NCBI RefSeq assembly: GCF_024713945.1
Contig: NC_134680.1
Span: 6,941,501 to 7,005,500 of the forward strand
From: Dermatophagoides farinae
Taxonomy: Eukaryota; Arthropoda; Arachnida; Sarcoptiformes; Pyroglyphidae
Reading direction: 5' to 3'
Length of the DNA: 64,000 nucleotides
The notes below the pieces were generated by a model. It had not been told where the DNA came from. It made no database searches and was given only the letters and a program-made list of their open reading frames with translations. Shown one piece after another: positions 1,589 to 54,795 of this stretch (the stretch's first letter is position 1; every line of letters begins with the position of its first letter). Made by a program: the position numbers and the translations under genes.

Positions 1589-1976
1589 TCGAAGCCCAAA
1601 TTACTCATCATCAATATTTTAAAATAACACCACAAACCGAAGTAAATGTGATTGAAGGTAGTACAGTGGTACTACAATGTGTTGTTGGCAATCAACGTGG
1701 TCCAGTGCAATGGGCCAAAGATGGTTTCGTTCTGGGTTATGATCGTAATATACCAGGTTTTCCACGTTATTCAATGGTTGGTGATGCTAGCCTTGGTATA
1801 CATAATTTACGTATCATGGATGCACGTAATGAAGATAATGGTGAATTTCAATGTCAGGTAAGTGTCGCTAAAAACAGCGAAAAATTGAATCATCTTATCC
1901 AATTTTTTTCCGCAGGTTGGTCCAGGCGGCAAAAACTATGCTCCAATACGAGCTACCTCAAAAGTTACCGTACTAA
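1589..1976 (+). CDS. Nephrin-type gene exons 1-2: Ig domain 1
   Basis: Exon 1589-1857 ends on CAG before gtaagt; exon 1916-1976 follows a short 58-base intron and ends in phase 1 before gtgagt. The translation has the family's Ig1 hallmarks: VQWAKDGFVLGYDRNIPGFP then RYSMVGD and FQCQVGPG. This W-x-K-D-G-F-x-L-G and PGFPRYS signature is shared by nephrin/Sns and Kirre/Rst first Ig domains, the region that makes the heterophilic contact. Both canonical cysteines are present. Confidence 0.92.
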
Positions 1977-4900
1977 GTGAGTATATATAGTCCACATATT
2001 CTGTTTTTTTTTTTTTTTTTTTGTTGGAAAAATACGGTCGATTCACCCACTGTATCTGTGCTCACACAACACACACACATACACACCCAAGCAGGAAGCC
2101 AGCTTTTTTGTCATCCTTTTTTTATTCAATATATCGTCCATGTGTATCGTGTCTGTGTTTGTCTCGTTTCATTTAATTTAATTATTATTTTAAATTTTTT
2201 TCAGTTTTTTTTTCCAGTTTAGCATGGATGACGAATAGTTTCATAGACATAGATAAAAAATGAAAAGTCTAATGAAATCTAATTATTTTCATATCACACA
2301 CGCACACACATGATCCGAATAAAATGAATAAACATCTAATGATGTCACTTGTGCACATCAACCAGACAATTTTCAAAAAAAAACCTAAAAGCATCATTTG
2401 ATCATCAGGAACGGTAATTGGCTACCATGAATGAATGAATGAATAAATGACAGTGGTGAAAAATCATCAGATTTTCCAATTTTTTGCATCAAAATTTTAC
2501 CAAAACAAATCCAGACCGAATTATTTAACATTCTAGTTCCATAGGTGCCACTGGTAGTGAAAAGAGATTGAGATTTCTCGAAAACCAACGAAAAAATAAA
2601 TGATTGCCAGTTAGTTTTGTTTCTTGCTTGCAGATCTGTGTCTGTATGTGTGTGTGTGTTTGCCCGGTTTATTTCCAGTCATTGATTTCGGAGATATTTC
2701 AAGTTTCTTCGACCATAGATGTTATTTCTCGATAATGGTAATAATTAGTACGTCAATATTAATCAAAAATTCTACGATAATAAATTCAGTGATTCGATCA
2801 ACCAAAAATATCAAAATCAAAATCATTTTCCCAATCTATAAACCTAAATATAATGATAATGATAATAATCAGTTGGCAACAAGCAAAGTGCACATTTCTA
2901 GAACAAAATGATAAATTCCATTGATATTTTCATTACAAATCACTTTTTTTTCTTTATGGTTCCTGGATCGATTCCAAGATAATGATAGAAAAGGTCGAAG
3001 ATGATTATTATGTGATGCTTAAATTGTCTGTTTTATTTCTTTTTCGTTTTGTGGATCGATCATTCATCAATTATTTTCTCTTTTTTCAGAAATTAAACTT
3101 TTTTTGTTTTAAATTTTAATTTAATTTAAATTTATTTTTCTTCTTTTTCCTCTTTTATCGATTAAATGTAGTACCACCAACTTCGATTGAAATTGTTACG
3201 CCATTAAAAGGTAAAAGTTTAACGAAAAATTCATCAAATGTTGAACTGCGGGAAGGCGGTAGTGTAACCATTGAATGTTTGGTTACGGGTGGTAAGCCAC
3301 CAGCTCAAATTAAATGGTTCCGTAAAAATGTCGAGCTTCGTCCAGGTATGATGTTTTTTCTCCAAGTTGTTATAGTTACACTACATGAAATCATTGTCAT
3401 TTGATTCATAATAGAAATGGGCACCAATCCTGAAACAACAACCGTGACGACTACATTGGTGGATTCCAATAGTATACAGGAAATCGAATCGGTTGTTTAT
3501 ACAAGTAAATCAAAAATAACCGTATCCGGTAATGCAGAAGATAACGGAGTACCATATAAATGTGAAGCCGTCCATCCAGCCTTAACTAATAGCCGTCCAA
3601 TGCGTCGTACAATATCATTATCTGTACTATATCCACCGGGTGAGCCAGAAATCACTGGCTATACCGAGGGCCAAAATCTTAAAGTTGGTGATACATTAAA
3701 ATTGGATTGCCGTGCACGTGGTGGTAATCCATTAGCACAATTAGTTTGGTTCCGTAATGATGAACAGATTGATTTTTCCTATACAACTGTTGCTGAAAAA
3801 TATTCTGTGAATGTAATGCAATTCAATGTTGAAGCGCGTGATAATAATGCCGTCTATCGTTGTGTGTCATCATCACCAATTATGGAACGTTCCATTAGTA
3901 AAGAAATTAAATTACAAGTTTATTTTGGTCCTTCGAAACTGTCAATTACATCCGTGAAAGATGTTAAGGCCGGTGATGTTGTATCCGTCAGTTGTCGCAC
4001 TGAACCATCGAATCCTGCTGCACAAATCAGTTGGGTAGTGGATGGCCGTCCAATTATTCACAATAGTACTGTTGAATCGGCTAAAGGTGGTGGATTTATA
4101 ACTACGGCCAACATAACAATCACAATCACCAATCAGGTATGTCTATTCTTTTTTCAAAAAATTAACGAACAAAAAAACCAAACCAAATTATTCAATCGTT
4201 CGAGTTCACACACACACACACAATAATATTGCATCGGATTTTCTTATTATTTTCATTCTCGATTGAATCGTAATCTTGGAAACATTTTATTCATTTGACG
4301 ATTTAAAAAAATAATGATGGCGGCTTTCTAATGTCAACATAGCGAAGATTATGTATTAAGAAGAAAAAAATGAAAGAATCAACCAATTGAACGAAATGAA
4401 TCAGAATCTGTCAGAATTCTGGGCTTCAGTCAGATTAATTTTCTTATTTTTTCTCTTCCTCTGTGAGCATCATCATCTTATTTCGAGATATTCCGCCTGT
4501 TTGCCTGTCTCTTGTCTTTCTTTTCTTTCACTAATTAAAAACCTTTTGATGATAATGATGATGCAACCATCATTGTGCTTAAATGACAACATTTTGTTCA
4601 ATGTTTCTCACAGACTAATAATAATGATGATGATGACAAGAGAGATTTTGTTGACGACGACGACGACGGCGGCCACCAAAGAAAGAGAGAATAACAAGAT
4701 AGAAACAAATTCATGATGAAACGAAATAGCTTGACTTAGAAATGAAAAAAAATCGAAGACGCCCTTAACCATATGTCGACTGTGTGTGTGTGCACGAATA
4801 TTAGTCATATGAATCTTGCCCGAATTAATGAATCTTCTTCTTCAAAAAGAATTCCTTTTGGCCATATAATATAGTTATTGCTCTGCATTTTTTTTTTGGC

Positions 4901-7900
4901 TTCTAGTTTGGGTTCAGTTTCTTACTTATAATTACGCATTATTAATGAAGCTTTAATTGAAAACAAATGATATGGATAGATGTAAGCTGAATCTTGTTTT
5001 GTGTCATTGAGGTAAAAGCTGAGCTACTTGAATTATTCTCATTCGGACACTATTTCTTTATAAAGAAAAATTCTTGCATTTTTGAATTATTGCAATCAAG
5101 TTGGCGATTTTCCGCATTAATTTTGATGATGATGATCAAAATGACCATTTTCAATATCCTAATCATTTTCTTGATTGCAACAATCATTTATTTGAAATGA
5201 ATGCAATTCATTTTGATTCTTCTTGAATTTGAAATTTTTGTTTTGGGTTGTTGAAAATAACCAATAATGTTTGCCGACCAATCACATTCGATTGCTTAAA
5301 TCTTTTTTTTCTTTTTTGCTTGCTTATTTTCGACAAATGGTTTTTGTTTTAGTGTTTTTTTTTGCATTCCCGACTTGTTTCATTGGAATTTTTTTCGCCA
5401 TAATCAAATTGAATGTATTTTTGTTCTTGCTTCTGCTGCTGGCTGTAATGACAATCCGGAAAAGAAAATCAGCTTTGCTTAAAAATTTGAATTCAATTTG
5501 GATCCATGGATTTAAATTGTTCCAGAAAAATTTTGCTTGTTTTTTTCATTATAATTCAATTAAATTCAATTTTTGTATGGCGAGAAAGAAATTGGCTGAA
5601 CAAAACAAAAACAGAAAAACAAAGAAAAAGTTTTTTACCCCTTCATTTTTCGTTCACTGTGTTTATGTGTTTGTGTTTTGTAATGATTTTCATTACAATT
5701 TTCATAATTTTTTGCAACATTCATTCCTCTGGTTTTACAATCCATGTGATGTAATATAATGTAATTTTGATACTTTTACGATCCCAATTCTATTCTCTTG
5801 TTGTTTTTGTTGTTCATTTTGACATTTGGACTCTGGTATAAAAACAACAACAACAACAACGCAACTGGGCACTTTTGGGAATTCTGTCCATTCTCTAAAC
5901 TATTACATGAATAAAATGTTGAAAATTAATTGCCACACATACACACACACAAAACATCTCAGCCCGAATGAAATGATGATGATGATGATCAACACAGGCC
6001 ATATATTCACTGATGTCCCTTATGACGTTTCGAAAAGAATTGTGAATGAAAAAAAGAAGCGAGAAAAAAGTTCATTTCGTTCATCTTTCTCATTTTTTTT
6101 TTATCTCCATGAATCAACATGAATGATGAATAGCGCAAAACTCCCCGAAATCACAATCACACACACACACAAACGATCATAACGATGATATGGAATTAGT
6201 ATGAATTTCACTTTTCGCACCAAACCAAACAAACAAACAACGAATTTGTGAGTGTTGGACCATGCTGCTGTTGTTGTTGTTTTTTTCTGTTTTTTGTTTT
6301 GTTTGTCATATAACAAATTATCCCAATATTCTTGTTTTCACACTCATCTCATTATCATTCGGGCTGACAGGCAGTTGAAAATGGAGCATTATTCAAAAAA
6401 GTAAGAATACTCTGTATTTGCTGATAATACATCACCACCACCACCACCACCACAAATATTGTAATGACTTTTGCCAATCACCATCAGATAGATTTGTCAA
6501 ATCCATTCAGTCATTTTAGTCTTATTTTAAAATCCTATTGATGTTATGTTTGTACAAATGTTGTGTGGTCTAAACATAGCCATGGCATTCCCCCTCAAAA
6601 AACAACAAGCTCTCGAATGACAAATTTAGATGACACCGTCATCATTCACAATGGATTGTTGATCATAAATAACATGTTGTGAAAAATCGTTATCTATGAA
6701 TGGTACAAGAGCCGAGCGCGCTCAACGAATTTCGCGCCAACAAGAAAAACACAAGACAGACACACACACAGTCGCAAGCAACTCGGTTTTTTGAGACACA
6801 CACACACACATGAATCAACACCTTTGATGTTTTTCTTTTTCTTTCCACAAATTGTTCTTTTTCAATAAAGTCAATTACAAAACATTCGTGTTCGAGTTCA
6901 CATTCCTGTCCAAAAGATTATGAGACTGAGTTGGTGATCAGAAAATATCATCAATATCGAGCAATCATTTTTTCAAAGTTTTTTCATTCGTGTCTGAATT
7001 TCAATCCGTGTGTCAACCACAACAAACAGTTTCATCATGAGTGCTAACGAAGAAAATTTGGCTGGGTTGTTATCACAAAGAAAATCGTACCGTGCAGCAA
7101 TAACAAGGGCGTACAATCAATTGAGATCAAATGGTACAATGCCATCGTTGGAGTCAGCAGCCACGCTTCAATCTGAATACGCGGAAATTACGTTACAATT
7201 GGCGGATTTGAATCATGAAGATGACAGTGATTATATGGAAAAGATTAATCTCGTCATTGATTTCATATCTCTATATCATAGTGTTGATCGTCAAACATCG
7301 CGGCAAACAATGTCGTTGACAGCTAGAAATCGATGTCAAGTGAAGATCGAACAATTGGACAAACTGGTAGAGAAATTTCCTACTAGAAATGGATTATTGG
7401 ATGATCTACATGAGAAATTGGAAAATATGTCTATCGAATCGACTAGTCAGTCAATGTCATCGGCACGAAGCAATGTGCTTTCACCATTAGCAGTAGTCAC
7501 GACTCCTAGTCCTAGTATATCATCGAGATTTCAAAGTGTTCATTCCGATCATGCTAGTCAAACGGCAAACGGTCATTCATTCACTGCATTACATCGTCAA
7601 AATGTCACGTTCGGGTTTGGTAATCGACCAACGCCACCGATTATAGATACTTTGCCAAACCATGAGGACATTCAATCACAAAACGGGTTTCAGATTCAGC
7701 AACCCCTTCTTCAAACATCACCATTGGTATCATATCAACAACCATATTTCACAGGCAACAATATGTTCAATCCACAGCAACAACCATATCAAGTGCCAAA
7801 CAATATGTTCAATCCACAGCAACAACCATATCAAGTGCCAAACAATATGTTCAATCGACAGCAACAACCATATCAAGTGCCAAACAATATCCAAAATGAA

Positions 7901-10900
7901 GTGAATCCGTACGTTTCAACGGATATCAAAATAAAATCCGAAGAAGTACAAAAGTTTGATGGTACAGCTGCAAATTGGCCCGATTTCAAAGATGCAGTTG
8001 AGGAACTAATCATCAACAATAAGCAAGTACCAACCCTAGGATCAAAGTTTCGTCGACTTATGAAATTGCTTCCACCGTTGGCACAAAAAAGAATCCGTGG
8101 TGAAAAGTCTAATCCGGATTTTCAACGAATTCTGAACGTCTTGGATGAAATTTATGGTTCACCCGCTCTGGTCATGAAAGAGTTGGGTCAAAATATACAA
8201 TCATTGCCATTTTTACGACTGGATTCACATCATAGTTATTTCACAAAATTCTATGAAACGATGGTAGATATTAAAGGAATCGATTTAAATGAAGGCGACA
8301 GTCGTACGATAATAGGTAAAATTCTCGGAAAAATGGATCCCGAACACCGACGAAGAGCATTTCATAGTCCGAGTCAATCAATAACAGATGAAAAGAAGAG
8401 AATCGACAAGTTATATGAATACTTTCGACAGATTACTCAAGACGACTTATTGATCAATCAAATGTCCAACATTGGTGTTAATCGTCAACAACAAGGCAAT
8501 GAGTCCAAATTTAATAACAAATTTAATCGTCAGAGTGATCAAAGAAAAACATTGGCAGCAACATCGAGTGATAACGGAAGTACATCCGACTACAAACCAA
8601 AGTGCATTTTTTGTGGTCAATTCCATCTTCATATACATTGTCCCATGTCGTATGACCAAAAGATGCTGGTGCTAAATAAAGAGAAACGTTGCTACCGCTG
8701 TGCCGGAAAAGGCCACGGCACACGAGATTGTACCAGAATCTTTAAATGCAACAAGTGTGGATCAAATCATCAGTCATATTTGTGTAAAGGTACCGCAAGT
8801 GGTAGCCAACATCCATCAAATCAAACTGCGGTAAAAACATTGATGACTTCTGAAAATCAACCGAGTACTTCCTCAGAACAGCCAGTACAAAACGATGAAA
8901 CCGTCACATCCGCGTTGGCACGCTCAGAAAGTGCATCACAATATTTACAAACATTGACCACTGTAATCAACGGGACCAAAACCCGCGTTATCTTCGACAG
9001 CGGTTCTGAAATTTCCTTCATCACGAATAAATTGGTTAACAGATTGAATCTCCCGAGAATCAAAAATAAACCAATCTGTGTTAATGGTTACGGCGGACAA
9101 CGTGGCCGCTACATTGGTCATTATTATACCACACTTCAATTACCGGATCGTGATGGATCGTTGAGTGAATTCAAACTTATAGTCGATGATACAGTGGCAC
9201 ATTTCAATTTCAACGTTCTACCTACAACTGTTCAAAACCAAGTGAATGACGAGTACAATATCGATTTCAAGGACGAGAATATAAGTGTCGATATTCTGTT
9301 TGGCAACAACGATAAAAATCGTCTAAAGTGTCTTGTCGCTGATAAAGCATACAACGATTCGTTGCTTATTGGTAAAACATCATTGGGATACATCGTACAT
9401 GGTCGATCGGATGATTATCGTTCAAACATCGTTGCTTGTCTATCGGAAATACATGATCCACCAATCGATATGTTAATCAATCCAGAGGATGAACGTGCAA
9501 TGCAGGAATTTATTAACGGGTTCATCAAGGATGGTATTCTTTACGACACAAATGAACGAATCTACAGAATAAAATTTCCGTTTATTAGCAACAGTGTAGT
9601 CAATTCGAACTTCAACAATGCTAAACGATTATTGGTTTCTAAAAAATCATCGCTGTCCAATGCCGAATTCAACGACTACAACGATCTAATAAAGGAATTG
9701 GAAACCAATAAAATTGTCGTAAAGTGCAATATTCAACCAAACGAGGGTTATCATATGCCCCACTCAGTGGTGGTCCGAAAATTGGATTCGGAAAAAACGA
9801 CAACTAAGAAACGTTTGGTATTTAACGCATCCAACGGCAACAACAATTTGAACCAAGCTATATTCAAAGGAATTACAACTTGGTGCTTGCCGCGATCGTT
9901 ACTTCATTTTCGCCTACGAAACATTGCAATCATAGCAGATATTAAAGCTGCTTTCCACAACGTACACATCCAATCCGATCATCAGAAGTATGTAAAGTTT
10001 TTGTGGTACGACAATAATAAAAATGATATCGAGTGTTACAAATTTCTTCGACTTCCATTTGGCCTAACATCATCGCCATTCATTTTAAACGTAGTCATCG
10101 ATCATCACATTAAAAAATACAAAAACAAATTTCCAGAAATTGTAGCTGCCATCAACTCAAACTTGTACGTGGATGACTTGGTCCATTCGGTAAATAGCAA
10201 AGCCGAAGCGATTAAGTTTCATAATGTCAGTTCCGAGATTTTCAAAGACGCTTCGATGCAACTAAGGAAGTGGCAATGTTCCGATTCCGATATCGACAAT
10301 TTGTGGTCTGACGGTTTGGGTGAAAACAAAGTTCTCGGCGTAATATGGCATAAAAATGACGACACCATCAAAATATCATTTCCATTGTTCAATTTTTCCA
10401 ATGATATCACCAAGAGGTCATTGTTATCAACCTTGGCATCCATTTACGACCCCATGGGATTACTTTTGCCGTCCACCATTCAACTTAAATTTTTCATTAG
10501 CGAACTATGGACGCGTAAAATTGATTGGGACGATTTATTGCCGCCAGAATTACATGGCCAAGCTCGTAGAATCTTGACCGACATCAACAAATTGAAAAGT
10601 TTCAAATTATCAAGAAAGCTGTTCAACGAAACGTCGACTGAATATGATATGATAATTTTTTGTGACGCCAGTAAAAAAGCAATCGGTGTAGCAGTGTATC
10701 TTTCAAACGGTGCTGAAGCAACATATATATTCGGAAAATCAAAGATGCTAAAACCACGTAAAATCGTTACGGGAGAATTATTGGCATTATCTGCTGGCGC
10801 TAATCTTGGAAGCGCATTGAAATCCATGTTGCCAATCAACAAAATCATAGTTCTGTCTGATTCGAAACCAAACGTCGATCGATTAACCACGGATATCAAC

Positions 10901-13900
10901 AAATTCCCACAATGCGTCGCCGTCCATTTATACAACATTCGATCAAAAATCGACGCTGTTCATTGGGTATCGGGTAAACAGAATCCAAGTGACGCACTCA
11001 CCCGTGGAGTATCATTTGAACAACTCAACAAATTGCATAGTCTTGATCAGAAATTTCTTGAGGAAATTTATCGTGATTCTCATCAGTTTTCTTCTCTCAC
11101 CGTAAAAATTGAAAACCCCTTGACAATCAATATCGACGTCAATCAGTCGCTTTCGTATAATGAATGGATACAGCTGATCCAGCAACATATCAACGATGGA
11201 GATGACGATCCATTAACAGTCTTGATCAAACTGAACCAACAAAGGTTTCTTAGCGACTTAGATCATTTTCAGAATACGTTCGTCGACGAATCGGGCATAA
11301 TACGGTGTAGCACCAGACTCGATAATTCAGATCTCGACTATGATTGCAAAAATCCAATCTTCGTACCGAATTGTCCTTTTTTGCTGTCACTATTGTATGA
11401 AATACACGAGAAGGTTGGTCACGGATCTGAATACAGAACCATGACTGAGTTCCGGGAAACTTATTATACACCGAAACTTCGACAAAAGGCGAAAAAGGTG
11501 ATTAGCCGATGTAACATCTGTCGAATAAACAAAGCAAAACCATTGACGGTACCAAATGGAATTCCTCCTGCAAGCCGAGTCACCAGAAGTGTACCGTTTA
11601 ATACGACCGGCGTGGACATGTTCGAGATTCGTCATCCGAATAAATTGTATGGGCTATTATTCACATGTTTCGTAACCAGGGCCATACATTTGGAGCCAGT
11701 TGAAAATGCATCCGCTTCAGAGGTGCTCAAAGCCTTAAGAAATTTTGCAGCGTTGAGAAATTGTCCTTCAGTAATATTCTCAGACAATGGAACAAATTTC
11801 AAGAAACTGGGAAAGCTGCTTAATCAATGTCTGGATCAAATTAAAATAGAGTGGCATTTTATTACACCATATAGCCCTCATCGTGGCGGAATTTGGGAGT
11901 CATTGATCAAGACCACAAAGAGAGCTATGAAGTCAATTGTTTGGAAAAAAGATCTAAATTCTGAAAATTTTCGCACGATTCTTTACGAAATTACCGCTAT
12001 CGTCAACTCTCGACCAATTGCAGACATGAATGGTTCAATATTGACCCCAAATAAACTGATCTATGGTACCGAAATCCGTAAACCACCACAACCACCATTC
12101 AAATCAGATGTGAAAATGGATCTATTGACGGAATGGAGAAGCAAACAAAGAAATGTAAATGCGGCATGGAAAGTCTGGAAAGACTTGTATCTGAAACAAT
12201 TACGACATTTCCAACGTAACAAATCAAAATATGAATATCTCAACATCGGTGACCGCGTATTGATAAAAGATCATTATCAAAACCGTGAAAAATGGCCGAT
12301 TGGCGAAATAATCGAAACCGTACCGGATTGTAAAGGAATAATTCGCACATATCGTATCAAAATTGGTAACGACAAAATAACCAGAAGCAACCGTGACGTT
12401 TTTCCTCTAGAAGGGGGAAAACTTGCAGCATAATTCAGTGAAAAATCGTTATCTATGAATGGTACAAGAGCCGAGCGCGCTCAACGAATTTCGCGCCAAC
12501 AAGACAAAAATACAAAAACACACACACAGTTGCAACAAACTCGGTTTTTTGACGTACACACACACACACACGTAAAATCAATTCTTTTGATGTTTTTTCA
12601 TTTTTTCATAAATTGTTCTTTTTCAATAAAGTAAATTACAAAACATTCGTGTTCGAGTTCACATTCCTGTCCACCTTGTGTATATTAACACTGACGACCA
12701 AAAAAATAAAAATAAAATAAACCCAACAACAACACCGACATTGATGACATAATCATTTGATCCGATTTATTTATGCTCACCAAATAAGAATTTAATCAAT
12801 TTCATTCATTTTCATGATTTTGTTTTTTCCTTGAAAATGATGAACCGAGTATTTTCCAGATTTTTCTTTTTTTTGGAATATTCATAAACATGTTTTGAAA
12901 GAATGTATTTCCCAAGAAAAGCATAAAGTTGATTGGTGGTGGTGGTGGTGGGTTGATCATTTACAAAACATTTACAAAACGGTAATGTTTGGACATGCAA
13001 ACATGAAATTATCGAAACATTTTTTTCGATTCGATTCGATTTGATTTTGTTCAATTTCATTAGTGCGTGTTTTTTCGTTTGCATGAAAGAAGAAGCCTAC
13101 GATGCATTTCTTGCATTTTTTCGGAATTTTTTTTTCTCTTGGAGAGTAATTCTTGGATTCGTGTGTTTACTTTGGCCGTCAAATATGCAAATCACTCTCT
13201 AAATGAATGAAAATTTCTGGAATTTCTAAAAATGTTTTTGTTGTTGTTGTTGCTATTAACATGCATCATCATGTGGTTGATTTTTTTTGTTTTGTTTTAA
13301 AATGGCAAACAAACACCCACACATTGATTTTATTTTGTTTGAATTTCAGGGAATTCTAAAGATTTTCTTTTGTTGGAAAAATTTTAATGATAATGACCAT
13401 CATCATTATTTTTTTCGTAAAGTTTTTCCCATTGATAAACTTTTGTTTTTTCCACTTTAACGTCGCTAATAAATTGTTTAGTCCGATTCGATATTGAGTG
13501 CGTGAATCCATTGATGGTGATGATGAAATCCAAAGTTGCAAACAAAGTGATCATCATCTGTCTTTCGATTCCAGACCAAATTCTAAGAAACAATCCAAGA
13601 TTTGTGCAATCAAAAAACAAACGGTAGCTCATTTCTATTTGTCAATTGATGAAACAAAACAAATATAAAAGAAAACTTCATGATTGAATCGTAACAATGA
13701 ATAAAAGATTCTAAATGGTTTTTCATTCATTACTCAAAAGTTCGATTTTATCAGAATATCATTTTTTTGCACACAAAAAACATATCATTATTCTATCTGT
13801 TCGATGTATGTATGTGTGTGTGTGTGTGTTCATGCATTCCTGCTGGGTCCACGCTCATAATCAGTTTTGAGCCAGAATTTCGCCATCCATGTATTTGTTT

Positions 13901-35193: not shown

Positions 35194-35194
<1 letters not shown>

Positions 35195-35225
<31 letters not shown>
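35195..35225 (+). repeat. (CA)n microsatellite, 31 bases
   Basis: Uninterrupted CA run in the 3' region of the nephrin-type gene, the longest dinucleotide repeat noticed in the window. Confidence 0.95.
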
Positions 35226-35228
<3 letters not shown>

Positions 35229-35703
35229 CAATAAACATTATCCCACCGATTCATCAATCAGCAATCAAATTATGAAAAAACCTGAGAAATCTGAAAACAA
35301 ATCTCAATGGCCTTTTTTCATTTTCTCATTTTGATTTCAAGATTTTCATTCTTGGAATCTTTATTCCATTTTTTAGTACAATGAAAATTCATCAGTCTCT
35401 ATGCTTCAGACACCGACAATATTGAAATATTGAAATGAATCGATTCGAACCAACCAACAAATCTCAAATATTATCATCTCCCAACAGTTGAAAACAACAA
35501 CAGTCAAATTGGTCAATCATCCGGATTGATTCGAAATTATTGTTTTATCTTTACAATAGAGCCATTTTATATATTTTTATGATGAATTCAATTCGACTCA
35601 CTACTGATTGATTCATTTGTGTATAATATTTGTAAATATTCATCATGTTTCCTATATGTTGCCAATCTTGTAATGGATTGAATATAAAAAAAATTGATTT
35701 ATC

Positions 35704-35714
35704 AATAAAATAAA
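35704..35714 (+). terminator. Candidate poly(A) signals for the nephrin-type gene
   Basis: Two overlapping AATAAA hexamers at 35704-35709 and 35709-35714, about 1.8 kb after the stop codon, in AT-rich 3'-UTR-like sequence. Confidence 0.45.
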
Positions 35715-41953: not shown

Positions 41954-41980
41954 ATTGATCTTTAATGAAATGATTTTGTG

Positions 41981-41999
41981 ACGGCGCTTCAAGCGTCGT
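41981..41999 (+). other. Short GC-rich hairpin after the EB-like gene stop codon
   Basis: ACGGCGCTTCAAGCGTCGT can fold with a 7-pair stem (one G-T pair) around TTCAA. It begins 28 bases after the stop and stands out in AT-rich surroundings. Its function is unknown. Confidence 0.4.
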
Positions 42000-43323
42000 T
42001 TGAGGTTCTGGTGACCTTTTGTCATCAATGAAAATGTATTTAAGAGACGATTTGAATGAAAAATTTTTTATTTCCCAAGTTTTTTGTCTCGAACTCGCTT
42101 CGTACACAAATTTTTTTAGTATAAATTAAAAATAATTTCACCATCAACAATTGAATCACCAGTGAAGCAAAGTGTTTAGCTGTTATTCATCTCTAATTCA
42201 TCTATCCATCATCTCTATCAACTTGGAGCAACGCAACATGTGACTCAATCGTTATGGTTTTTTATCGTGAAAAAAGTTTTGTATCAAAATGTTAATGTAC
42301 GAATATCAGGTGAGAAAATCAGCATTACTTGCAAAAGAACTTTTTGTTTGAAAATAATGATCAAGTTCCTTATAAAGGATGGCCACACATTGACTGCACA
42401 ACTAACTATTCATTTTGAATTGTTATTGCTAATGCGGTATCATTTTTGTGTACATTGTCTGAATCGTTGTCGTTTTGCAAACGTTTCTTTACTTTTGTTT
42501 TGTTTTGTTTTTCTTCTTGAAATTCTTCACATTCCATTCGAAGGAAATTCTGGTTCTATATTTTTTTTAGCCAATCTTTCGATCTCGACAAATCGAAATT
42601 TTTCCAATTGCAAATGAAACATAGAAAAAATAGAGAGAGAGAAAGAGAAAAGAGAAACAAAAACAAGACCGAAATTGATGGTTATGGCTGGAATTCACCA
42701 TTGTTATTGTATCGGGCATTCAGAAACGAACAAAACAAAAAGAATCAAATCATTTGTTTTCGAAACGATTTTTTTTCTTGCCCAAACCATTATCATAAGA
42801 TTTGGTTTTTTCTTCTTTTTGTTAAAGTCACATCATCATCATCATCATTGTGTCCAACAACGAGAAAATGAGAAATAAAATTATCTTGCATTCAAAACAA
42901 AAACAAAAAAAACATCGTTTACAAGAATGATGATCTAATCTCCAATCAAAATTGGCATGACTTTATCATCATCATTGAGCTATAGCTAAAGAAGCAACTG
43001 TTTTTTTTTTGACTATGATGTTCATCAGTTCGTCATATTCATGATTTTCCATTACTTTTTCTCTAACTATTGATATTTTTTTTTTGCAATTTGATTTTAA
43101 ATTATACAAGTGACGCCATCTATTAACAGAAAAAAAATCTATGAACAGTAAATGCTCTATAAATGTGAAAAATTGGCTAAATTATTAATTAATACTGTTT
43201 CTTGACTTTTTGTTGTAGTTTTGTATCTCTATTTTGTATCAAATGGAGAATCGTAAATTCCATGACCAGTCTTTTTTGAAATCTATCCACATTTTTAGAT
43301 ATAAACTTGTACATATTGAATGA

Positions 43324-43329
43324 TTTATT
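43324..43329 (-). terminator. Candidate poly(A) signal of the Neph1-type gene
   Basis: TTTATT on the + strand reads AATAAA on the - strand, about 150 bases past the stop codon. Confidence 0.4.
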
Positions 43330-43474
43330 TGATTTAATACAATGAATGATGAATGAAAAAATTTGTACAAAGTGATAAATAAAACAAAAATTAATTTTCT
43401 TGACAGAAATAGAGAAAGCAAAAGACTAAAAAAAGATTGACATTTTCAAAAATCAAATTGAATTATCATCATTA

Positions 43475-43870
43475 TTATACATGTGTTGCAATGCTTATTT
43501 TTGAAATGCAATTATCCAATTCTTTGGCAAGAGATGGCGGTGGTGTAGGCATCGGCGTTGATTTGACTCGATTATTATTAACAGCAATGCCAATCGGTTG
43601 TGATGAATGAACCGAATACGGATTTGCCTGATACATATCGATCGTCGATGGTGATGATATAGGATTTTGATTGGCGGCCATCTGAATATTATTATCAAAT
43701 TGTTGTTGTTGTTGCTGTTGTTGTTGATAAAATTGCTGTGCCAGATATGGTGAATAGGAATTTCGATTTGAATTCGGTATCGATGCTAAATGTCTGGTCA
43801 ACGTTGAATAATTAGTCGATGATAACGGTGGCATAGCAACAATTTGATCCGATTTGGCCATGTTGTTATT
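43475..43870 (-). CDS. Neph1-type gene exon 9: C-terminal tail and PDZ-binding motif
   Basis: The acceptor CTGCAG on the - strand gives a phase-0 start. The tail is Asn/Ser/Pro-rich with a nine-glutamine run (YQQQQQQQQQF) and a proline-rich TPMPTPPPS segment. It closes CISKISIATHV; THV is a class I PDZ ligand (Thr at -2, Val at 0). Confidence 0.88.
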   Translation of the reverse strand, partial: NNNMAKSDQIVAMPPLSSTNYSTLTRHLASIPNSNRNSYSPYLAQQFYQQQQQQQQQFDNNIQMAANQNPISSPSTIDMYQANPYSVHSSQPIGIAVNNNRVKSTPMPTPPPSLAKELDNCISKISIATHV

Positions 43871-46800
43871 CTGCAGAAATAAATTGAGAAAACATTAAAA
43901 CCATCGAACATTCATTAAATCAATTGAATAATGAAAAACATAAATTACATTGATAATTCATTCATAAATTGATTCACTTAGACAAACTGAAATCATCAAC
44001 CTGATCCAATACTGTAAATCAATTCATGAAAACATCCTCATTTTCATTTATCGATCAATCAATGGATTGTTACAGGTTTCTACTACTATTATTTGAACAC
44101 AAACATTTTCATTCTCTTAACTTTATCGCCACTGCCTTTCATACACAATCATAATAATAATCATAATTAAGTCATTAATTTTCTTCCAATTTGAACATTG
44201 GTTTCTATAACAAACAACCAGATCAACAACAGCAGCACGATGAATGTATACATAGAAGAAAAAATGACGATCATCATTTACGAATCCAAGTTATTATTAG
44301 TTAGTTTTCCATTCAGAAGTTCGATTTGGGCGAAAATTGTGACAACAACAACAATCGCGAAATCAGAATGAATGGCCAGCCAATATTTACCCAGTTTATT
44401 CATGTTTGTTTGGATAATCTAATCTTTGATCTTGTGGTCTGTCTGGTGGATTGATGATTGTTGTTATCATCAACATCATTATTATGATGATTCCAATTAT
44501 ATATCATTTTCTTAAATACAAAATGAAGAATGATCCTGTCGATAAGAGTTTGTTTTTTTCTCGGCTAAAATTGGCATCAATCTTTTCACATCATCATCAT
44601 CATGATGATGTATCAACATAATAGGTATGGTCGTGTGATTATTGTAGATTTATTTTCCTAGTTTTTTGTTTGTTTGTTTGTTTGTTCTGTCAACAACTGG
44701 TTGGTCAATCCATTTTTCATCGATTATATTGGTTCTGAATACAAGTGGATTCCAATTTTCTACTAAACCATCCACAAAAAGGATTCATCTCATTGATTTA
44801 GATTTATTATTCAGCTTTCTGTATTTGTCTTTCAACAATGACATGACACACATAATTCGAAACTCGAATTCATTCGTACTATGATGATGAATGAAGATCT
44901 GAGAAAAAAACATGTATCAATTGTGTGTCCACAACAGATCTAACTTGGGATTCGTGAAAATCAACAGAAAAAACACAGCCTTTATGTGAAATTATCTGAT
45001 TACATTTGAGGAAAAAAGTTGATCAAAACAATTATGCTATGTGTGTGTTTAGACAAATTAACTGTTTGATTTCCGTTGGATTAATGAGTGGATGGATTTT
45101 GTGGCTACCTGTTTGCATCATGGCTTGATAGGTTTTTCAATCAAAACAAAATTCATCGTTGACAAGCATCAACAATCATCATCATTATGGATTTTGATTG
45201 CTTTTTGAATTGATCCATTTGATTCATTTAGAAAATCTCCTACTATGTGTTTATGTGGTCTATCTGATACAATAATGATGGCTTGTTGGACCAAGTCAAT
45301 CGTTTTTTATGGATCAATTTATAACAGGTATTCAGACACTTATGTAATGCCTTTGTTCATTCGACCTGACCACAACACGCAAACTAATTGATGATCAATC
45401 ATTTCAACAATATCCATCATCAAAAACATTGCAATCAAAGTCTTCAACATAGTCATCATTATCATCTATAGATCTAAATTTTGTTTTTTTTTTGTTTTCA
45501 TCATTATACACTGCTGTTTTATGTGTGCTGAATTTCGTTGATCTATACATTGTTCAAATGTTACTTATCTCAATCAACAACATTCGAATGGACATTATCT
45601 TTTAAATTTTTGGCTTTACTTGTCAATTCAAGTCTAAAAATTCATTATCATTTCTCTTCTTTCATAGTCGTCGCCGGTCAATGAATCTGAAAATTTTTGC
45701 CATGTTCTGATTGGACCAATTTTTTCATGTGACAAATTAATTCATGTTCACTATTCATTGAATGAATGAACGATCTATCTATCTATCCATCTATCTATTT
45801 ATCAATCTATGTATGTATAAATGTAGTCTGTTTGATCAGAAACATAGCCGAAATTCATCAAATAAATTTTCTCTGGCAATCACTATTGAGATGTCGCATC
45901 TGTATGTCTGTCTATTGAATGATCGTGGTGAATGTGAACGACGACCATCTCGATATCTCAACATTTGATATTGAATGGTAAAATATTCTTGTTGTGTGGC
46001 CTGTGTTCATCAATGAAATGGATACAAATTGATTCTGTGACATTGAAATTGTCACAGTCTCTCTCTCTCTCTCTCTCTCTCTCAACATATCATAATTCAC
46101 TTTGGATTTGATCAATCCAAGCAAAAGTAATTATGAAATTCAAAAAACTCACCGATATCATCGGTGAATTCAATTCACTAGCTGTATCGAAAACTGAATT
46201 GGCAAAAAATGGTGGTGATGTTGGTCTCTGATGATGATGAGGATGATGAGAAACATTAGCACCATTCATAGTACCAAATTGCATTGCTTGATTGTTCATC
46301 AATTGTGAATGAGGCGATCGCCGTTGATGATTATGAAGGCTATTAATTGTTCGACTGATAATACCAGTGTTTGGTCCAGGTGATGAACTGCTAGTGGGCT
46401 GATCTAAATATACAGGAAACGAGGATGATGTTGATGAACGTTGCGATCCAGTCGATCCGGATCGTGTAATAATTGTTCCAGTTTCTGTTGGTCCATTTTT
46501 ATCTAGAAAATAATGTGCTATAATTGAACAAATTATGTTTTTCAAAGACACAAAAACGAAGCATTTACCGGAAGAGGAATTTGTCCGCGTTGAATGTGTT
46601 GAATAGATATTATGATTATCTGGATTATCCAAGCTACCCATGTAATGTTCTTTGCTATCTTTTTCACCATCAGATTCAGTTTCCTGATTTTGACGTTGTT
46701 GTTGTTGTTTCACAAGATTTCGATGTTTAATCGACAACAAAAGAATTGTTGTTGTCAATACGACAAACACAAGAATCAATATGGCAATGGCAACGAATAT

Positions 46801-49800
46801 GACAATTGTGGAAAAACTCGCTGTTGTCAATGAAGAAGAATTATGTTGTCATCGTAGCACAGAGTTTAGAAAACTTACTTTTTTCTTCTAACGACACTAG
46901 ATGCCAATCCGAACCATAACTATTAACTACAACACAATTATAATAGCCGAAATCATTCTAATTTCGATCGAAATGTATCATGTGAAAAAAACAAAACCCA
47001 GCTGAAATTAATGCGAATTACTTGGAGAAAAAAAAATTACCTCGAACGTTTGTCGAATATCAAATGATGTTCGTTGTACGACCATTTCTTCTTTTAGTGT
47101 TTCCTCGTGTATATCGATATTGATGGGAATATTGTTGGCTGATCCTGATGTGAAAATCTGTCCATTATGTATCCATGTAATGGCTATTGGTGATGGTACC
47201 GATTCGACTAGACATTCTAAATGTCCCGGTTCACCCAAAACCGCAAAGAAACGATTATTCTGCAATGATGACGATGACTTTTGTTTTGGATTTGTACCAA
47301 GATTATTATCATTAACTGGATAAAGTAGACTATAATATGATGATGTCGGTGACGGTGTTGATGATGATTGCTGTGCTTTCCGGATCTTTGGTGGACCTGC
47401 ATATAATAATCATCAATCGAAATGAAACAAAACGATCAGATTTAAAAAAAATCTTGAAACTTGATCGATAATCATAATCATCATTATCCATCATCATGAT
47501 ATCTATGGCTATCTGTTTGTTGTTGTTATTATGAAAATAATGATGCTCTACACATATGATGATGATGATGATATTTAGATTATCGATCTCTTTTCTTTTC
47601 CCATTCGCGATATTCGGTTATTATCATGAAAAAACAAGACCAAATAAAACACTATCACTATCCAATGATGACGATATAATGATGATGATACCCCGAAACA
47701 ACAACGATGTAAGCAACTAGCCAACAACAGTGCAATTAGCATTATTCCCCGTGTTTTTTTTTGTCTTTATCACACAATCTTTTCTTTTGGTCACTACAAA
47801 CAAAATTGAAATGATTGCCCGCTGGCTTTTTTCCAAGTCGCACTTGTTGCTGTTGATGCTGTGTGTGAATCACGAACCTGTTGCGCGCGTAATAATTAAC
47901 TTTTTTTTCTTTCTTTTCGTTTTTATCATCGGTATTTCGGTAGCCTATGCGATCTGTTTTTTTCGATTTCATTTCAAAGCCACACAAACAACGACTTTGA
48001 ATCACTGGAAAATTAAAAACGGCAACAAGACAGTGGCCATTATCTTTTCTACGAAATGAAAATCTAGGAGGGTAAAACATTGTTAATAGTCATGAAAATG
48101 CTAGAAATGTCCATGACTACTGTATTTCAAAGGATCTCTGGCATACGGTCATAAAAATTGAATCGTTAATCGAATCTTAATGATTAGAACGTGAACAAAA
48201 GACAACAATTTCTTTGCAATTGATGTTTTTTCCATAACAATAAAGTTGCACGAACTTTGAAATGTTTTGATTTTCGAACAAAAATTCTAAAAGACACTTT
48301 TACCGAACGAATCGCCTTTTAATTCACGGTTATTCAATCATCATCTTGGTTGATCTATTCTTTATGGGTGTTTGGCAGTGAAAAATACTACAATGTAACC
48401 ATATACCATTCATAGAGGGTAACCCGACTGTTGTCGTGCAGACCGTATAGAAAAAAATCGGCCAAAACTAGCTAGAGGATTCGAAAATCATAATTTACAC
48501 CCTTGGTCTGTGTATTCACTTGCACGACATCATTATCGCACATCTTATAGAAACATTTGTAGATGTGTAAAAGCCAACAGCCAAGCATCTTAACCAACAT
48601 TGTTGATTGTGGATTTGGATGGCCATCAAAATCGACACTAAAATTTTTTTTCATAACTTAAAGTAGTAGCTTTATGTTTTTTATTTGATGCTATTCACAA
48701 TCAAATTCTCATGGCACGTTTTCACATTACTACTACTCATTTGGTTACATTGTTGTTCATTTAATGTGATGGAGAAAATGGCGGGTTGGGTTTCACAAAT
48801 GTATGTTTCAAATTCTATACAACAAAAAACATTTCTCTTTTTATCCTTGAACAAGAAAATTTTGTCATTCCATCAATACAATCGTTTTGAATTTGAATTC
48901 AAACTCAAACAAAACATACGCTGAAGGTCGTGAAATTCTGTGTGTGTGTGTGTGTGTATGTGTCTATTCTATTGAATGCTCGTGCAGTATATACATTATT
49001 AAATTATACAATTGAAAAGTACCGAAATGATTTCAAAGTGAACAGATAGAGATAGAAATTGTAGGTAGGTATTAATTATGGTTTTTGTTTAATTTTGATT
49101 TGATAATTGTCCAACAATTGTTGCCAATCCAACCATGTATTATACAATGGACATCTGTACTATGGATGTCGATGATGGATGAATTTTTTGTTTTTAATTT
49201 CCAGGATCATTTACATTTGAGAAAATCCTTCCACCATTCTTAATTCTTAATCTTTACCGAATATCGATTTTCACTTCCTTATAAACACAAATTTCTGCCA
49301 TTGCTCAATCTCTCAATCAATATCAATATACTTTAATTAAGAGCACAAATCTTTTGCCACATCTCATCATTGTAATGGCTGAATTAGCGGGTGAAATGAA
49401 AAAAGGCAAAAGAGAGGCAGCCACTTATGAAATGTATCAGACAAACAAAACAAACAAATAAATGAGCCATTAGAGTTTGTTTGTTTAGAATCAATACATT
49501 GATCAGTTCCTGATTTGATTCATTCGTTCATTCATTCATTCATTATTCCATGTGTGTCTGGCTGTTTTCATAAGAATTTGTCATGTTGTTTTTACAAGCA
49601 AAATGATTACACTAGTACTTACCATTAATTCGAAGATAAATGATGGCCGAAATCTCTTGGAATCCTTTCACTGAAACTCGACATAAATATTCACCAACAT
49701 TCTCTTCTTGAACATTACGTATGGTCAATTTCGGACCAGTGCTCATCACTGAACTTGTGCCCACTTTAATCCATGTTATTTCTGGTGCAGGATTTCCATC

Positions 49801-52800
49801 CACTGGACAAGCTAATCGGACAGTATCACCAGGATTCGCACCATAAACATATTCAATTGTTGGCGAAAATGAAGGACCATATGCAATGTTCAATGTAATC
49901 GATGATTGTCCAGTACCGACTGGATTCGATACTTTGCATTGGATTTCGGCACCATTAAATGATTTGTCCACATTATCGATAACTAATTCATTGCCATGAT
50001 CGCCAATGATAACTTCGTTATTACGTAACCATTCGTAAATCATGGAATTTTTGCCTGGATTGCCATCTGCCATACAACGGAATCGTATCGTATCGCCAAC
50101 TCTGCCATGCAAATTCGACACACCAAACACTGACAAAGGCTGTGATGGCAATGTGTTGCCGTTATTATTATTATTATGAGCAACGACAATTCGTGACACT
50201 TCTAATTTAACTTCGGGTGCATATTTAACTTCTAACATAATGGCCGCCGTTGGTGTGGTCATCGATGAATTTATCGATGCGTATGGTGATGATGAAGCAA
50301 ATGTAGGATGTGACGAACGACAATATAGACGTTTTTGATGATCACTTTTTGTCGGTTCAAACGTCCATTTTAAAGCCGTATTGAATCTTTTACCATCATT
50401 CATAGTCGTTATCTTTGTGGTAATGCCTTTTTTCACTACACGATTTCTTGAATTGATCCATGAAAGCTATTGAATGATAACGATAACGACAATAAAAAAT
50501 CAAATCAGATTTTACATTTTACATAAAAAATAAATGTCGGAAAGTGAATTGAAAGAAACAGGTAAAAAAATTAGATTAGATTTCGGACTTTGACCAAAAA
50601 AAAGTTTTACTTTTTTCGATTTGTCATTATCAATTCGAATAAAAATCTTTTCTAGGAAATGGCTAATCATCATTGGCGAATCAGAAGCGTTGAATTTCAC
50701 CAGGCACGCAAACCTTTTTCGGAATTACATTCGAAACGGAATCGATCATGCACGATCAATCATTGAATGAATGATCAATTGTTTTTTTGTTCAATTTTAA
50801 ATTCAAAATTCAATTGAAATGAATAAATTTTTTTCCCTGTGCAAAAAATAATCAGCTCAGCTACCGTCGTGGTTTTCATGTAACAAATCAATATTCAACC
50901 AATAAATATTGAGGGGGTATCGATCAATCAATAAAGATGATGATGATCAAGACATCGGAGAGGAGTATGACTAACTTTGATTTAAATTTAATTAAATTAC
51001 AACCATTTGAATGGTGGAGAAAACAAAAGAGTCTAATATATCGATTGAAGGGTGTACACTGTACACTGCACACACTCTATAAACATTTGCCATCAATTTA
51101 TTGTGTTATCTATCAATCTAACGAAAATTGGTTTGGTAATTTGAATTCCAATGTCGATGGTTGATGGTGAAGATGAAGATGATGACCACCATCAGTGTGT
51201 GTGTGTGTGTGTTTGTGCTGCGATCATCCTCATTATCATTACCGCACACAAGTGATTGAAAAATAATTCTGTGCTCTCTGCTCGTCGTTTTCTCATCATC
51301 TAAAAATCAATCTGGTTTTTTTCGTCAATTTTCTTGTTGTTGTTGTTGTTTGCCATTCATTCATTTTCAAAGTTTATCATTTTTTCTTTCTCAGACTCAT
51401 AATTCAAACATTTTTGTGTTTTTTTTCTTGTTTGGATAAGCATGTGACCGACACACGAGACTGTGTGTGTTGTCCATGTTTTGACATGCAACTAAAATAT
51501 TTACTTTGGTTCATCTTTGGTGACCAGAATGAAAAATACAGGTAGCCTAATCAATGATTTGTTCAAAATAGTGAAATCGATGATCATTGATTTGAATGAA
51601 ATAATTGAAAAAATTGTGCAAGTTTTAAAACAAACCTCAGCAGCAGGTCGACCACCATGTGATTCGCATGTTAATTCAATTTTGTTGCCCGCTGTGGTCG
51701 ATAATAGTTGTACTTCTTGTTGTTGTAGATTATTATTATTTAGATGATGATGATATGGTACAAGATTACCCAAAACAATGACAGGATCATCGGGTCGTAC
51801 ACGTACGGTCAAACGTGCATTCTGTGATCGAATTCCTGGCACATTATCCAATGCACCAACTTGACATTGAAATGTGGCATCATCTTCCAGTGTTACTGAT
51901 GATATTTTCAATGAATAATCGCCTGAAATGAAATTTTATAGAACAAAAATTAAATTAAATTAAATTAAATTCACAAATTTAAAACAGAAATGTTGAGATG
52001 TGATCACAATGATTGGTCACGATTGTAGTTTTCAAACATTTTTTTCTTCTCAATCTTGACAAGAGAGATAAATGAAATTCATATCGATACAGATAAGGCA
52101 CATGGGTTATATGCCAAATACGAAATTTCGCTAATTAGCTGCTGTTGTCTATCCATCTAAATGAAATCAGATTCCTCGTCAATCAATCACTCGAGTCTTA
52201 TCATTATCATGATCTGTAGAATTTAATCCAGGAAAAATTCCTTATTTTATTTCGTAGAAATCAAGTCATCAAAATGGTGGTAATTTAGGCCAAATTATTA
52301 TTGCTAATCCTTTGACAAACAAGGATCAATGAATTACCAAGACTGTATATCATTATGTCCTTCTTATCATTAACACTATCATTTCATTTCTAAGTTAAAT
52401 TGGCAGTTTTTTAATTTTTTAAAAATAAATTTAGCACACACATGAATATCTCCAGTAATGAATGAATGTTTGCCATCTCTCTATATATGTTAGTTCTAAT
52501 CTAATTCATTTCCATCGACAATTTTTACCAATAATCAATCGATTTTAGATGATTTACGATCAAAGAGTCAGACACGTTTGTCTTTTTGTTTCAATCAATC
52601 GAATCAGTTCAATGAGTTGATTTCATTTTAGCTCAATCGAACAAAATAAAATCAGATCATTATCATCATTGATTAAAGGGGATCGAGCTGTTTTTGTCCG
52701 ACTATAGTTTTAATTTTGAAAACAAAAACAAAAACAAAAAATGAAATTAAATTAAATTTTCGCCCATCGAATCGAATGTGAAATGAAATCACACCTGACG

Positions 52801-54795
52801 TGTTTGAATGCTGAAACACTCACACCTGTTGCTTCACAAACATTCATGTTTTAATCAAGTGGTATCATCGACTCTGAAATTATAGCGAATCAAATCAAAT
52901 TAATGAATTTAATGAAAACTTACCAGTAGCATCATTATGCATCATTGAATAGGTGGGAAATCCTTCCAATCGTGGATCAGCGCCAAGACCGAATCCATCT
53001 CGTGTCCCTATGAAAAAAAGTTGAAAAATATGAAAAAAAAACATACAAAAAATCATGACCTTTGGCATGACTATGTGATATCCATAGTTAATCTATAATG
53101 GGACCTGCAATCATTTTCTTGTGATTCACATTCATTTATTTTTGACTTTTATCTCGAGTGAACGAAAAGAAAAAAAAATTTTTCTTTTCGTTTTGCAAAT
53201 TCATATGTTGCTAATGGATTTTTTTTTTAAATTTAAAAATTTTTTTCCTGATGAATGAAAATTGTCAATTTTAAATTATCCAATCAAGATATATTCATGG
53301 TTATCGGCAAAAAAATGTCACCAAATCAAAAAGAAAATGGTGACAGAAATCTTAAAGGCGGCCATATCATATTGCTCTCTTGTTCGGAAGCATCAATAAA
53401 GCCGCCGTTTTTTGGATAATGATGACGATCTTTCAGGAGATCAACACTAGAAATTCAACGAGAAAATCACTTTTTCTTTATTCGATTTAATGAATATCAA
53501 ATTTTGTTTCAATTCATTTTTTTCCACAATACAAACAACTTTAACTTTCAAACAAAAAGTGAAACCAAATTATCAGTTCAAACACTACTCCATCTTGGAA
53601 TGAATGTTAGAATGGTAGAATGACTGGCTCAGCATGATAATCATCATCATCAGTAATTACAGGTAATATAAATTTGGCAGAAAAAATGACTTGATTGAAT
53701 GTGAATTTTGTACTTGGTTGTGAGACCCTGATGTGAAAGATTCTTCTTCTTCAAAATAGAAAAGCATATGATGCCTGTAGCGTTTGTTTTTCACAGACAA
53801 AGAAAAACAAAAACATCAGTCTAATCTAAGAATATATAGGAAAAATCGTTTTTTCCGAAAAGCATCACTATTTAAATTGAAAATAAAAAATCAAATGTTT
53901 CACATAAATCAAATGTTTCAAGTTTATAGTTCTGATGATTCTACAGGTCGTCGTTGTCGTGTGCTGTCGTTCGTATTTCGGTTGCTAAATCAAGGATGAA
54001 AAAATAAATTCATCCAACATCAAAAACAAAAAAAAAAAAAACAAAACAAAACAAAAACTAATCCCTAACTCCACATACACACGAAGCTACTGTGTGTGTG
54101 TGTGGATGATTTGTCGCACGATATCTTTATCTCTTTTATCTTGGTGATCAATCTATCTCTATCATTCACCATAAATTGTCGACTTTGCTATCCTGGATGA
54201 TTACCATCTGAAGGATTAAAAAAGTTTGTGATCCAGAAACAAATAAACAACAACATTAAAGTGTAAATAACGAGTTTGTGGTTATATAGTTTTACTGATC
54301 CAGTTTGATTGGTGATGAAATGGTGAAAATAAAAAAAAAAAACTTACATTGAACAGTACCAGCTTTATTCGAAACACGACATGGTAATATAATCGATTCG
54401 CCAATATTAACGGTTAGATTTTCTGGTTCAATTAGAAATCTTTGCAATTTGATTGTGCTACTATGATGATGATGATGATGATGTGAATCTGACAGTGATG
54501 ATGACTGTCGTTTAAAACGATCATTAATAATGATCATTTTTGTGGATGACGCATCAATCAAAGATGACATGCTCAACATTGCTTGTTGTTGTTGTTGTAG
54601 CTGTTGACATTGTGACATGTTTGTCATCATCATCATCATCATGATAATGAACGATAAACAATCCGTCCATGGGTGTTTCTTTCGTTTTTTATCGAACCAT
54701 AATGAACCAATACTGCTGCTGTTGCTGCTGCTAGTTGTTATTGATATTGTCGGACACATCGTTTGTGGACAATTGAATTGATTAAATGAGACCAT
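43475..54795 (-). CDS. Neph1 / Kirre / Roughest-type cell adhesion receptor, nine exons, 1031 residues
   Basis: This is the five-Ig partner family of nephrin/Sns. Exons in transcript order: 54795-54348, 53007-52924, 51922-51636, 50466-49623, 47396-47041, 46957-46879, 46820-46569, 46502-46153, 43870-43475. All are GT-AG with matching phases. The first in-frame ATG after a stop at 54868 is 54795-54793. A hydrophobic LSFIIMMMMMM stretch follows about 45 residues later, an unusually late signal peptide. Then come Ig1 (residues about 125-225), Ig2, Ig3, Ig4, Ig5 (about 560-698), a transmembrane helix at about 704-729 and a tail of about 300 residues ending ATHV. Diagnostic features are WTRDGFGLGADPRLEGFPTY in Ig1, GGRPAAELSW in Ig2, exactly five Ig domains, no FN3, and the C-terminal THV known from Neph proteins as a PDZ ligand. 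Kirre versus Rst orthology is not resolvable by eye. Confidence 0.9.
43871..46152 (-). other. Neph1-type gene intron 8
   Basis: Intron of 2282 bases containing (TC)13 at 46058-46083, ATCT-type tracts near 45775-45800, (GTTT)n near 44667-44686 and many CAT repeats. No exon was recognised. Confidence 0.65.
46058..46083 (+). repeat. (TC)13 microsatellite
   Basis: 26 bases of uninterrupted TC within intron 8 of the Neph1-type gene. Confidence 0.95.
46153..46820 (-). CDS. Neph1-type gene exons 7-8: transmembrane helix and proximal tail
   Basis: Exon 46820-46569 encodes FSTIVIFVAIAILILVFVV and onward to LLLSIKHR, a membrane span with a basic stop-transfer, then a Gln-rich and acidic segment with SKEHYMGSLDN and HNIYSTHS tyrosines. 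Exon 46502-46153 follows a 66-base intron and is Ser/Pro/His-rich with SPPFFANSVFDTASELNSP. Confidence 0.88.
46879..47396 (-). CDS. Neph1-type gene exons 5-6: Ig domain 5
   Basis: Exon 47396-47041 begins GPPKIRKAQQ, has a Ser/Asn-rich insertion, then FFAVLGEPGHLECLVESVP and ITWIHNG. Exon 46957-46879 supplies the F-strand cysteine (DFGYYNCVVVNSYGSDW) and joins the membrane exon after SLEEK. Confidence 0.88.
47397..49622 (-). other. Neph1-type gene intron 4
   Basis: Intron of 2226 bases. Besides CAT and TG repeats it contains a more complex stretch, roughly 48060-48660, that might be a decayed transposon (see findings). No exon was recognised. Confidence 0.6.
49623..50466 (-). CDS. Neph1-type gene exon 4: rest of Ig2, Ig3 and Ig4
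   Basis: This large exon completes Ig2 (LSWINSRN ... RLYCRSSHPTF ... LEVKYAPEVKLEV), then Ig3 (DTIRFRCMADGNPGKNSMIY ... EIQCKVSNPVGTG) and Ig4 (DTVRLACPVDGNPAPEITWI ... GEYLCRVSVKGFQE). The YAP and YGP linkers between domains are family-typical. All canonical cysteines are present. Confidence 0.92.
50467..51635 (-). other. Neph1-type gene intron 3
   Basis: Intron of 1169 bases with a gtttgt donor, (TG)n near 51196-51212 and (GTT)n near 51334-51350. Nothing coding was recognised. Confidence 0.65.
51636..51922 (-). CDS. Neph1-type gene exon 3: end of Ig1 and start of Ig2
   Basis: GDYSLKISSVTLEDDATFQC then QVGALDNVPGIRSQNARLTV closes Ig1. Ig2 starts after RVRPDDPVIVLGN with an Asn/His/Gln insertion and NKIELTCESHGGRPAAE. 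The donor is gtttgt, a minor but accepted variant; phase 0 joins it to LSWINSRN in exon 4. Confidence 0.88.
51923..52923 (-). other. Neph1-type gene intron 2
   Basis: Intron of 1001 bases, AT-rich, with AAATT-type pentamer repeats near 51947-51971. Nothing coding was recognised. Confidence 0.65.
52924..53007 (-). CDS. Neph1-type gene exon 2: core of Ig1
   Basis: An 84-base exon encodes WTRDGFGLGADPRLEGFPTY and SMMHNDATG with split codons at both ends. The motif is the adhesion-family Ig1 signature also seen in the + strand gene at 1708-1776. Confidence 0.92.
53008..54347 (-). other. Neph1-type gene intron 1
   Basis: Intron of 1340 bases, AT-rich, with poly-A near 54031-54042. A 15-base direct repeat (AAATCAAATGTTTCA) occurs near 53889-53919. 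Nothing coding was recognised. Confidence 0.65.
54348..54795 (-). CDS. Neph1-type gene exon 1: signal region and first strands of Ig1
   Basis: The exon starts at the first ATG (54795-54793) of a frame open from 54867. A charged KKRKKHPWTD precedes a short hydrophobic Met-rich stretch, then Gln-rich and His-rich low-complexity segments (QQLQQQQQ, HHHHHHH). Ig1 begins with QRFLIEPENLTVNIGESIIL and the first cysteine (PCRVSNKAGTVQ). The start is uncertain; a further upstream exon is possible. Confidence 0.78.

Follow-up and report, generated by a model that had tools for sequence, protein, structure and literature searches.

Receptors of the nephrin class are defined by eight or nine immunoglobulin (Ig) repeats and a fibronectin type III (FN3) domain, and those of the Neph class by five Ig repeats (PMC3152562, excerpt). 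In human, one gene of each class, NPHS1 and KIRREL2 (nephrin and Neph3), lie head to head and 5 kb apart at 19q13.12, and the excerpted text words their shared regulation more weakly than as a shared promoter (PMC2736951, excerpt). A comparable pair is described here from Dermatophagoides farinae, in a 64-kb stretch of contig C4 (NC_134680.1, C4:6941501-7005500; hereafter the window), where a nephrin/Sns/Hbs/SYG-2-type gene, NephA, lies close to a Neph/Kirre/Rst/SYG-1-type gene, KirA. The assembly comprises 62.4 Mb in 22 contigs, 7.118 Mb of which is C4. A literature search of open-licence papers found no report of nephrin/Neph linkage in an arthropod. The predicted NephA and KirA proteins are ordinary members of known families, and the novelty lies in the arrangement, which is a variant of a known neighbourhood.

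As in human, a nephrin-type gene stands beside a Neph-type gene, at 9.6 kb in the mite against 5 kb in human. Unlike the human pair, whose head-to-head placement the initial annotation had described correctly, the mite genes are tail to tail, a predicted gene (gene X) lies between them, and a second Neph-type gene, KirB, is found 133 kb beyond. The convergent orientation and the spacing of about 10 kb claimed in that annotation are borne out by the exon models, with NephA on the plus strand, KirA on the minus strand and a stop-to-stop gap of 9,587 bp. The gene order on C4 is KirB(-), NephA(+), gene X(+), KirA(-), a Tim23-like gene(+), a hydrolase gene(+) and the ryanodine receptor gene RyR(+), while a second nephrin-type gene, NephB, is 2.2 Mb off. 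The description of NephA and KirA as a pair of neighbours needs amending: as predicted gene X sits in the gap, they are neighbours one small predicted gene apart, and they belong to four family genes found on C4. Under uniform placement, two given genes would lie this close with a chance of about 7e-4, a post hoc figure uncorrected for the many pairs that might have been noticed.

The same two families are represented by SYG-1 and SYG-2 in Caenorhabditis elegans, which, unlike the mite, has one gene per family; syg-1 and syg-2 are both presumed to lie on the X chromosome. Chromosome positions of these worm genes were looked for in PMC3156230 (excerpt) and PMC8843091 and not found. Like Drosophila, with rst and kirre on the one side and sns and hbs on the other, the mite was found to have two Neph-type and two nephrin-type genes. 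The fly families are on different chromosomes, unlike those of the mite, with sns presumably on 2R and kirre and rst on the X. For hbs, a position at 2R, 51C3-51D1, is published (PMC7556441, excerpt), and to that extent the initial annotation's placing of the fly families on different chromosomes is documented. A further difference from the fly is that the mite Neph-type copies look like the product of a separate duplication.

NephA was modelled from the genomic sequence as 19 coding exons with AG acceptors and GT donors, joined in a frame that stays open to the stop (window positions 1589..33887, plus strand; exons 1589-1857, 1916-1976, 3172-3345, 3415-4136, 14051-14090, 14953-15000, 15329-15520, 15584-15688, 16115-16360, 16433-16489, 16577-16858, 16917-17342, 18237-18956, 19359-19480, 21957-22008, 29250-29566, 29641-29992, 31720-32057 and 33594-33887). 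A signal-peptide exon was looked for and not found. The predicted protein has nine Ig-like segments by eye (seven stretches matched by Pfam Ig_3), one FN3 domain and a long cytoplasmic tail. The last Ig-like segment and the FN3 domain are encoded at 18237-18956 (PF00041, E-value 2.9e-11 on the joined protein), and a single transmembrane stretch, recognised by eye on the joined exons, is encoded by DIPRLFVIICVVCFALLLFNF at 19359-19480 and continued by VVVFYLRARKRRKRYEE at 21957-22008. Among solved structures, the best match of Ig1-4 is SYG-2 (4ofy_D, 121 bits, E-value 4.7e-34), followed by Roughest at 89 bits, spanning Ig1 and part of Ig2. By its Ig number, FN3 domain, closest solved relative and single transmembrane segment with tail, the predicted protein is of the nephrin class. 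Its seventh Ig-like segment (16577-16858, I-set) is without both of the usual cysteines, the motifs SFNQT and YKIYAT standing at the cysteine positions, and still scores well against Pfam.

KirA was modelled, likewise from the genomic sequence, as nine exons encoding 1031 residues from ATG to stop (43475..54795, minus strand; exons 54795-54348, 53007-52924, 51922-51636, 50466-49623, 47396-47041, 46957-46879, 46820-46569, 46502-46153 and 43870-43475). Five Ig segments, seen by eye, are followed by a transmembrane segment; in Pfam, Ig_3 matched four stretches and V-set matched residues 7-101, and FN3 had no match. The first two Ig domains match Roughest best among solved structures (4of8, 141 bits, E-value 4.2e-40), and the nine best matches are Rst, Kirrel1, Kirre, four SYG-1 constructs, Kirrel2 and Kirrel3, with SYG-2 far down at 33 bits (E-value 3.2e-7). 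With five Ig domains, no FN3 domain and Neph-type proteins as its closest solved relatives, the predicted KirA is of the Neph class. The protein end, SIATHV, places a PDZ-ligand-like THV directly before the stop (ATHV and stop, read directly at 43475..43489 on the minus strand). We take such a THV end to be the Neph1 motif and a defining end of the Neph family. The structure matches to SYG-2 and Roughest, together with the domain counts, agree with the family identities that had been assigned from the window alone.

The interval between the two genes (33888..43474, 9,587 bp by the exon coordinates) contains gene X, an open joined frame on the plus strand at 40611..41953 (exons 40611-40826, 41138-41237 and 41503-41953). 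It is predicted to encode a small single-pass membrane protein, with one transmembrane-like stretch by eye. No upstream or first exon was found where one was looked for, no Pfam family matched, and a search of the genome returned only its own exons. The guanine-cytosine (GC) content of the interval is about that of its surroundings, and the window contains no N in its 64 kb.

The genome was searched with parts of both ectodomains, and the best 49 and best 51 candidates were scored, so that more copies are possible; tblastn was also run on fetched stretches. Four family genes were found among these candidates, namely NephA, KirA, KirB and NephB, all on C4. KirB is on the minus strand, its matched exons running from C4 6,809,759 down to 6,800,231; it lies on the side of NephA away from KirA, at 133 kb from the first exon of NephA, and its best structure matches are Roughest and Kirre. 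The first Ig domain of KirB is 62% identical to that of fly Rst, against 51% for KirA. NephB, a more diverged gene with Ig and FN3 domains and a transmembrane segment by eye, is on the minus strand between C4 4,722,029 and about 4,697,634; for the Ig exon tested, as for NephA, SYG-2 is the best solved match. Three further genes would land on a contig of this size with a chance of about 1.5e-3 under uniform placement, a post hoc value that local duplication would raise. Weak general Ig matches on C1, C2, C3, C5, C7 and C9 and at 1.86 and 3.59 Mb of C4 were not counted as family members, having low scores and no match to the first Ig domain.

The duplication history was read from a tree of first Ig domains (nine rows, 111 columns). 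KirA and KirB formed a clade (support 96/95), and trees in which either KirB or KirA was forced together with fly Rst/Kirre fitted worse, at marginal p-AU values (approximately unbiased test) of 0.039 and 0.035. The mite and fly lines therefore probably acquired their Neph-type copies through independent duplications, with the KirA/KirB duplication falling in the mite lineage. NephA, NephB and SYG-2 clustered at 90/87, below the mark, with a very long SYG-2 branch; after removal of SYG-2, NephA and NephB clustered at 97/95. We also considered that one receptor gene had arisen from the other by a recent tandem duplication; the KirA and NephA clade that this would produce was rejected (p-AU 0.003), so the closeness of the pair does not stem from recent local duplication.

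We see about an even chance that the nephrin/Neph linkage is old, that it was retained and locally rearranged in the mite, and that the Neph-type gene was duplicated inside it in the mite's own lineage. Such a history is suggested by the adjacency of NPHS1 and KIRREL2 in human and by the finding of all four mite genes on a single contig. The presumed placement of worm syg-1 and syg-2 on the same chromosome, of fly sns and RyR both at 44F, and of human RYR1 at 19q13.2 would point the same way. Several observations weigh against it. The orientation differs, head to head in human and tail to tail in the mite; the families lie on different chromosomes in the fly, as published for hbs and assumed for the others; and the Ig1 tree is small, its SYG-2 and NephB branches being long. 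In addition, of four human chr19q13 genes picked beforehand, only GPI was matched on C4, and PEN-2, PAF1 and fibrillarin were not. Since C4 makes up 11% of the assembly, one match in four leaves wider synteny with human chromosome 19 unsupported. Additional matches were seen on other contigs, a fibrillarin-like one with stops on C13 (43074-43681) and a PGI-like one on C17 (148987-150456), which may come from a second organism represented in the assembly or be additional gene copies. The unlike orientation, the separation in the fly and the single chr19q13 match count at the same time in favour of a chance rearrangement that joined the two families in the mite lineage, independently of the human arrangement. 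This is a serious possibility, though we put it somewhat below even. It has to accommodate the four family genes found on one 7.1-Mb contig out of 62.4 Mb, and a single chance move less easily yields two Neph-type genes flanking one nephrin-type gene, unless the duplications came later.

A misjoin in the assembly could also have put the genes side by side, but this is very improbable given a 7.1-Mb contig, a window free of N and an interval with GC content like that of its surroundings. Moreover, KirB lies across NephA from the gap; as it is on NephA's own side of 33887-43475, a misjoin there alone would leave the two families linked. Selection may instead have held the receptor genes together, through shared long-range regulation or the co-inheritance of matched alleles. 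We regard this as unlikely, for the tail-to-tail order with predicted gene X in between excludes a shared two-way promoter, and the partners are expressed in different cells, in fly myoblasts (PMC8805411, excerpt) and at worm synapses (PMC3156230, excerpt). The co-regulation proposed in the initial annotation accordingly does not stand in the form of such a promoter. With that form excluded, any co-regulation of NephA and KirA would need a common regulatory domain, which is possible but unsupported. Function probably does not depend on the linkage itself.

NephA and KirA represent the nephrin-type and Neph-type sides of the irre cell recognition module in the mite. From what is known of the family, the first Ig domains of NephA and of KirA or KirB may bind each other between cells, and receptors bound across cell contacts would signal through their cytoplasmic tails. 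Binding of NephA to KirA would be expected, for instance, at the slit diaphragms of nephrocytes, in the fusion of myoblasts and in the choice of synaptic partners. If the linkage is old, it would give a date for the origin of the nephrin/Neph recognition system as a linked pair and would partly account for the adjacency of NPHS1 and KIRREL2 in human; the co-regulation of adhesion partners could then be addressed by comparing mites and ticks with vertebrates. A secondary linkage would instead caution against inferring age from two similar neighbourhoods.

The surroundings were surveyed on 224 kb of joined sequence, which held 106 open frames of at least 100 residues outside the window; the 64 that passed a simple-sequence filter were viewed by eye. 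Pfam was run on six frames (Tim17/22/23, hydrolase, RyR, trypsin and two of KirB), the others being judged by eye. Beyond KirA, Pfam identified open frames on the plus strand for a Tim17/22/23 family protein at C4 7,006,909 and an alpha/beta hydrolase at C4 7,007,936. These are followed on the same strand by RyR, with its frame at C4 7,010,010 and its first domain from 7,010,037, which puts it 13.7 kb away from the start codon of KirA. The first RyR domain occurs at one other place in the genome, on C5, which is taken as a putative IP3 receptor gene. Between KirB and NephA (C4 6,810,000-6,943,000), where 48 of the 83 long frames were inspected by eye, a trypsin exon at 6,868,000 was the only recognisable gene exon.

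Fly sns and RyR (Rya-r44F) are presumed to lie both at 44F, and human RYR1 at 19q13.2. The position of RyR near KirA, together with the 44F position of fly sns and RyR, points to a possible wider conserved neighbourhood. Nephrin-type, Neph-type and RyR genes may then have been close on one chromosome in the protostome/vertebrate ancestor, an arrangement kept in the mite and, as NPHS1-KIRREL2, in human, with the Neph-type genes moved away in flies. We hold this extended reading to be rather doubtful; if true, the adhesion pair would have been inherited as part of a linked set for more than half a billion years. Fly kirre and rst are assumed to lie near Notch. The Pfam NOD (Notch) profile had no match near the mite locus; it was also silent in every control genome and is hence uninformative.

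Two retroelements were observed in NephA introns. A BEL/Pao-type long terminal repeat (LTR) retroelement lies in sense orientation at 6679-12673, inside a 9.9-kb intron, and has an open frame of 1811 residues with Peptidase_A17 and reverse transcriptase domains (Pfam, one piece). Its terminal repeats, 6679-6912 and 12438-12673, are 89% alike in a gapped alignment. A Gypsy-like LTR retroelement at 23273-27591, in the 7.2-kb intron after the transmembrane exons, has reverse transcriptase and RNase H domains (Pfam, one piece), and its 123-bp terminal repeats are 100% identical, so its insertion is probably recent. A likely mite origin of the DNA is indicated by a group-2 allergen-like frame, which matched Der p 2 with an E-value of 2.9e-30 and 46 identical residues among 103 aligned.
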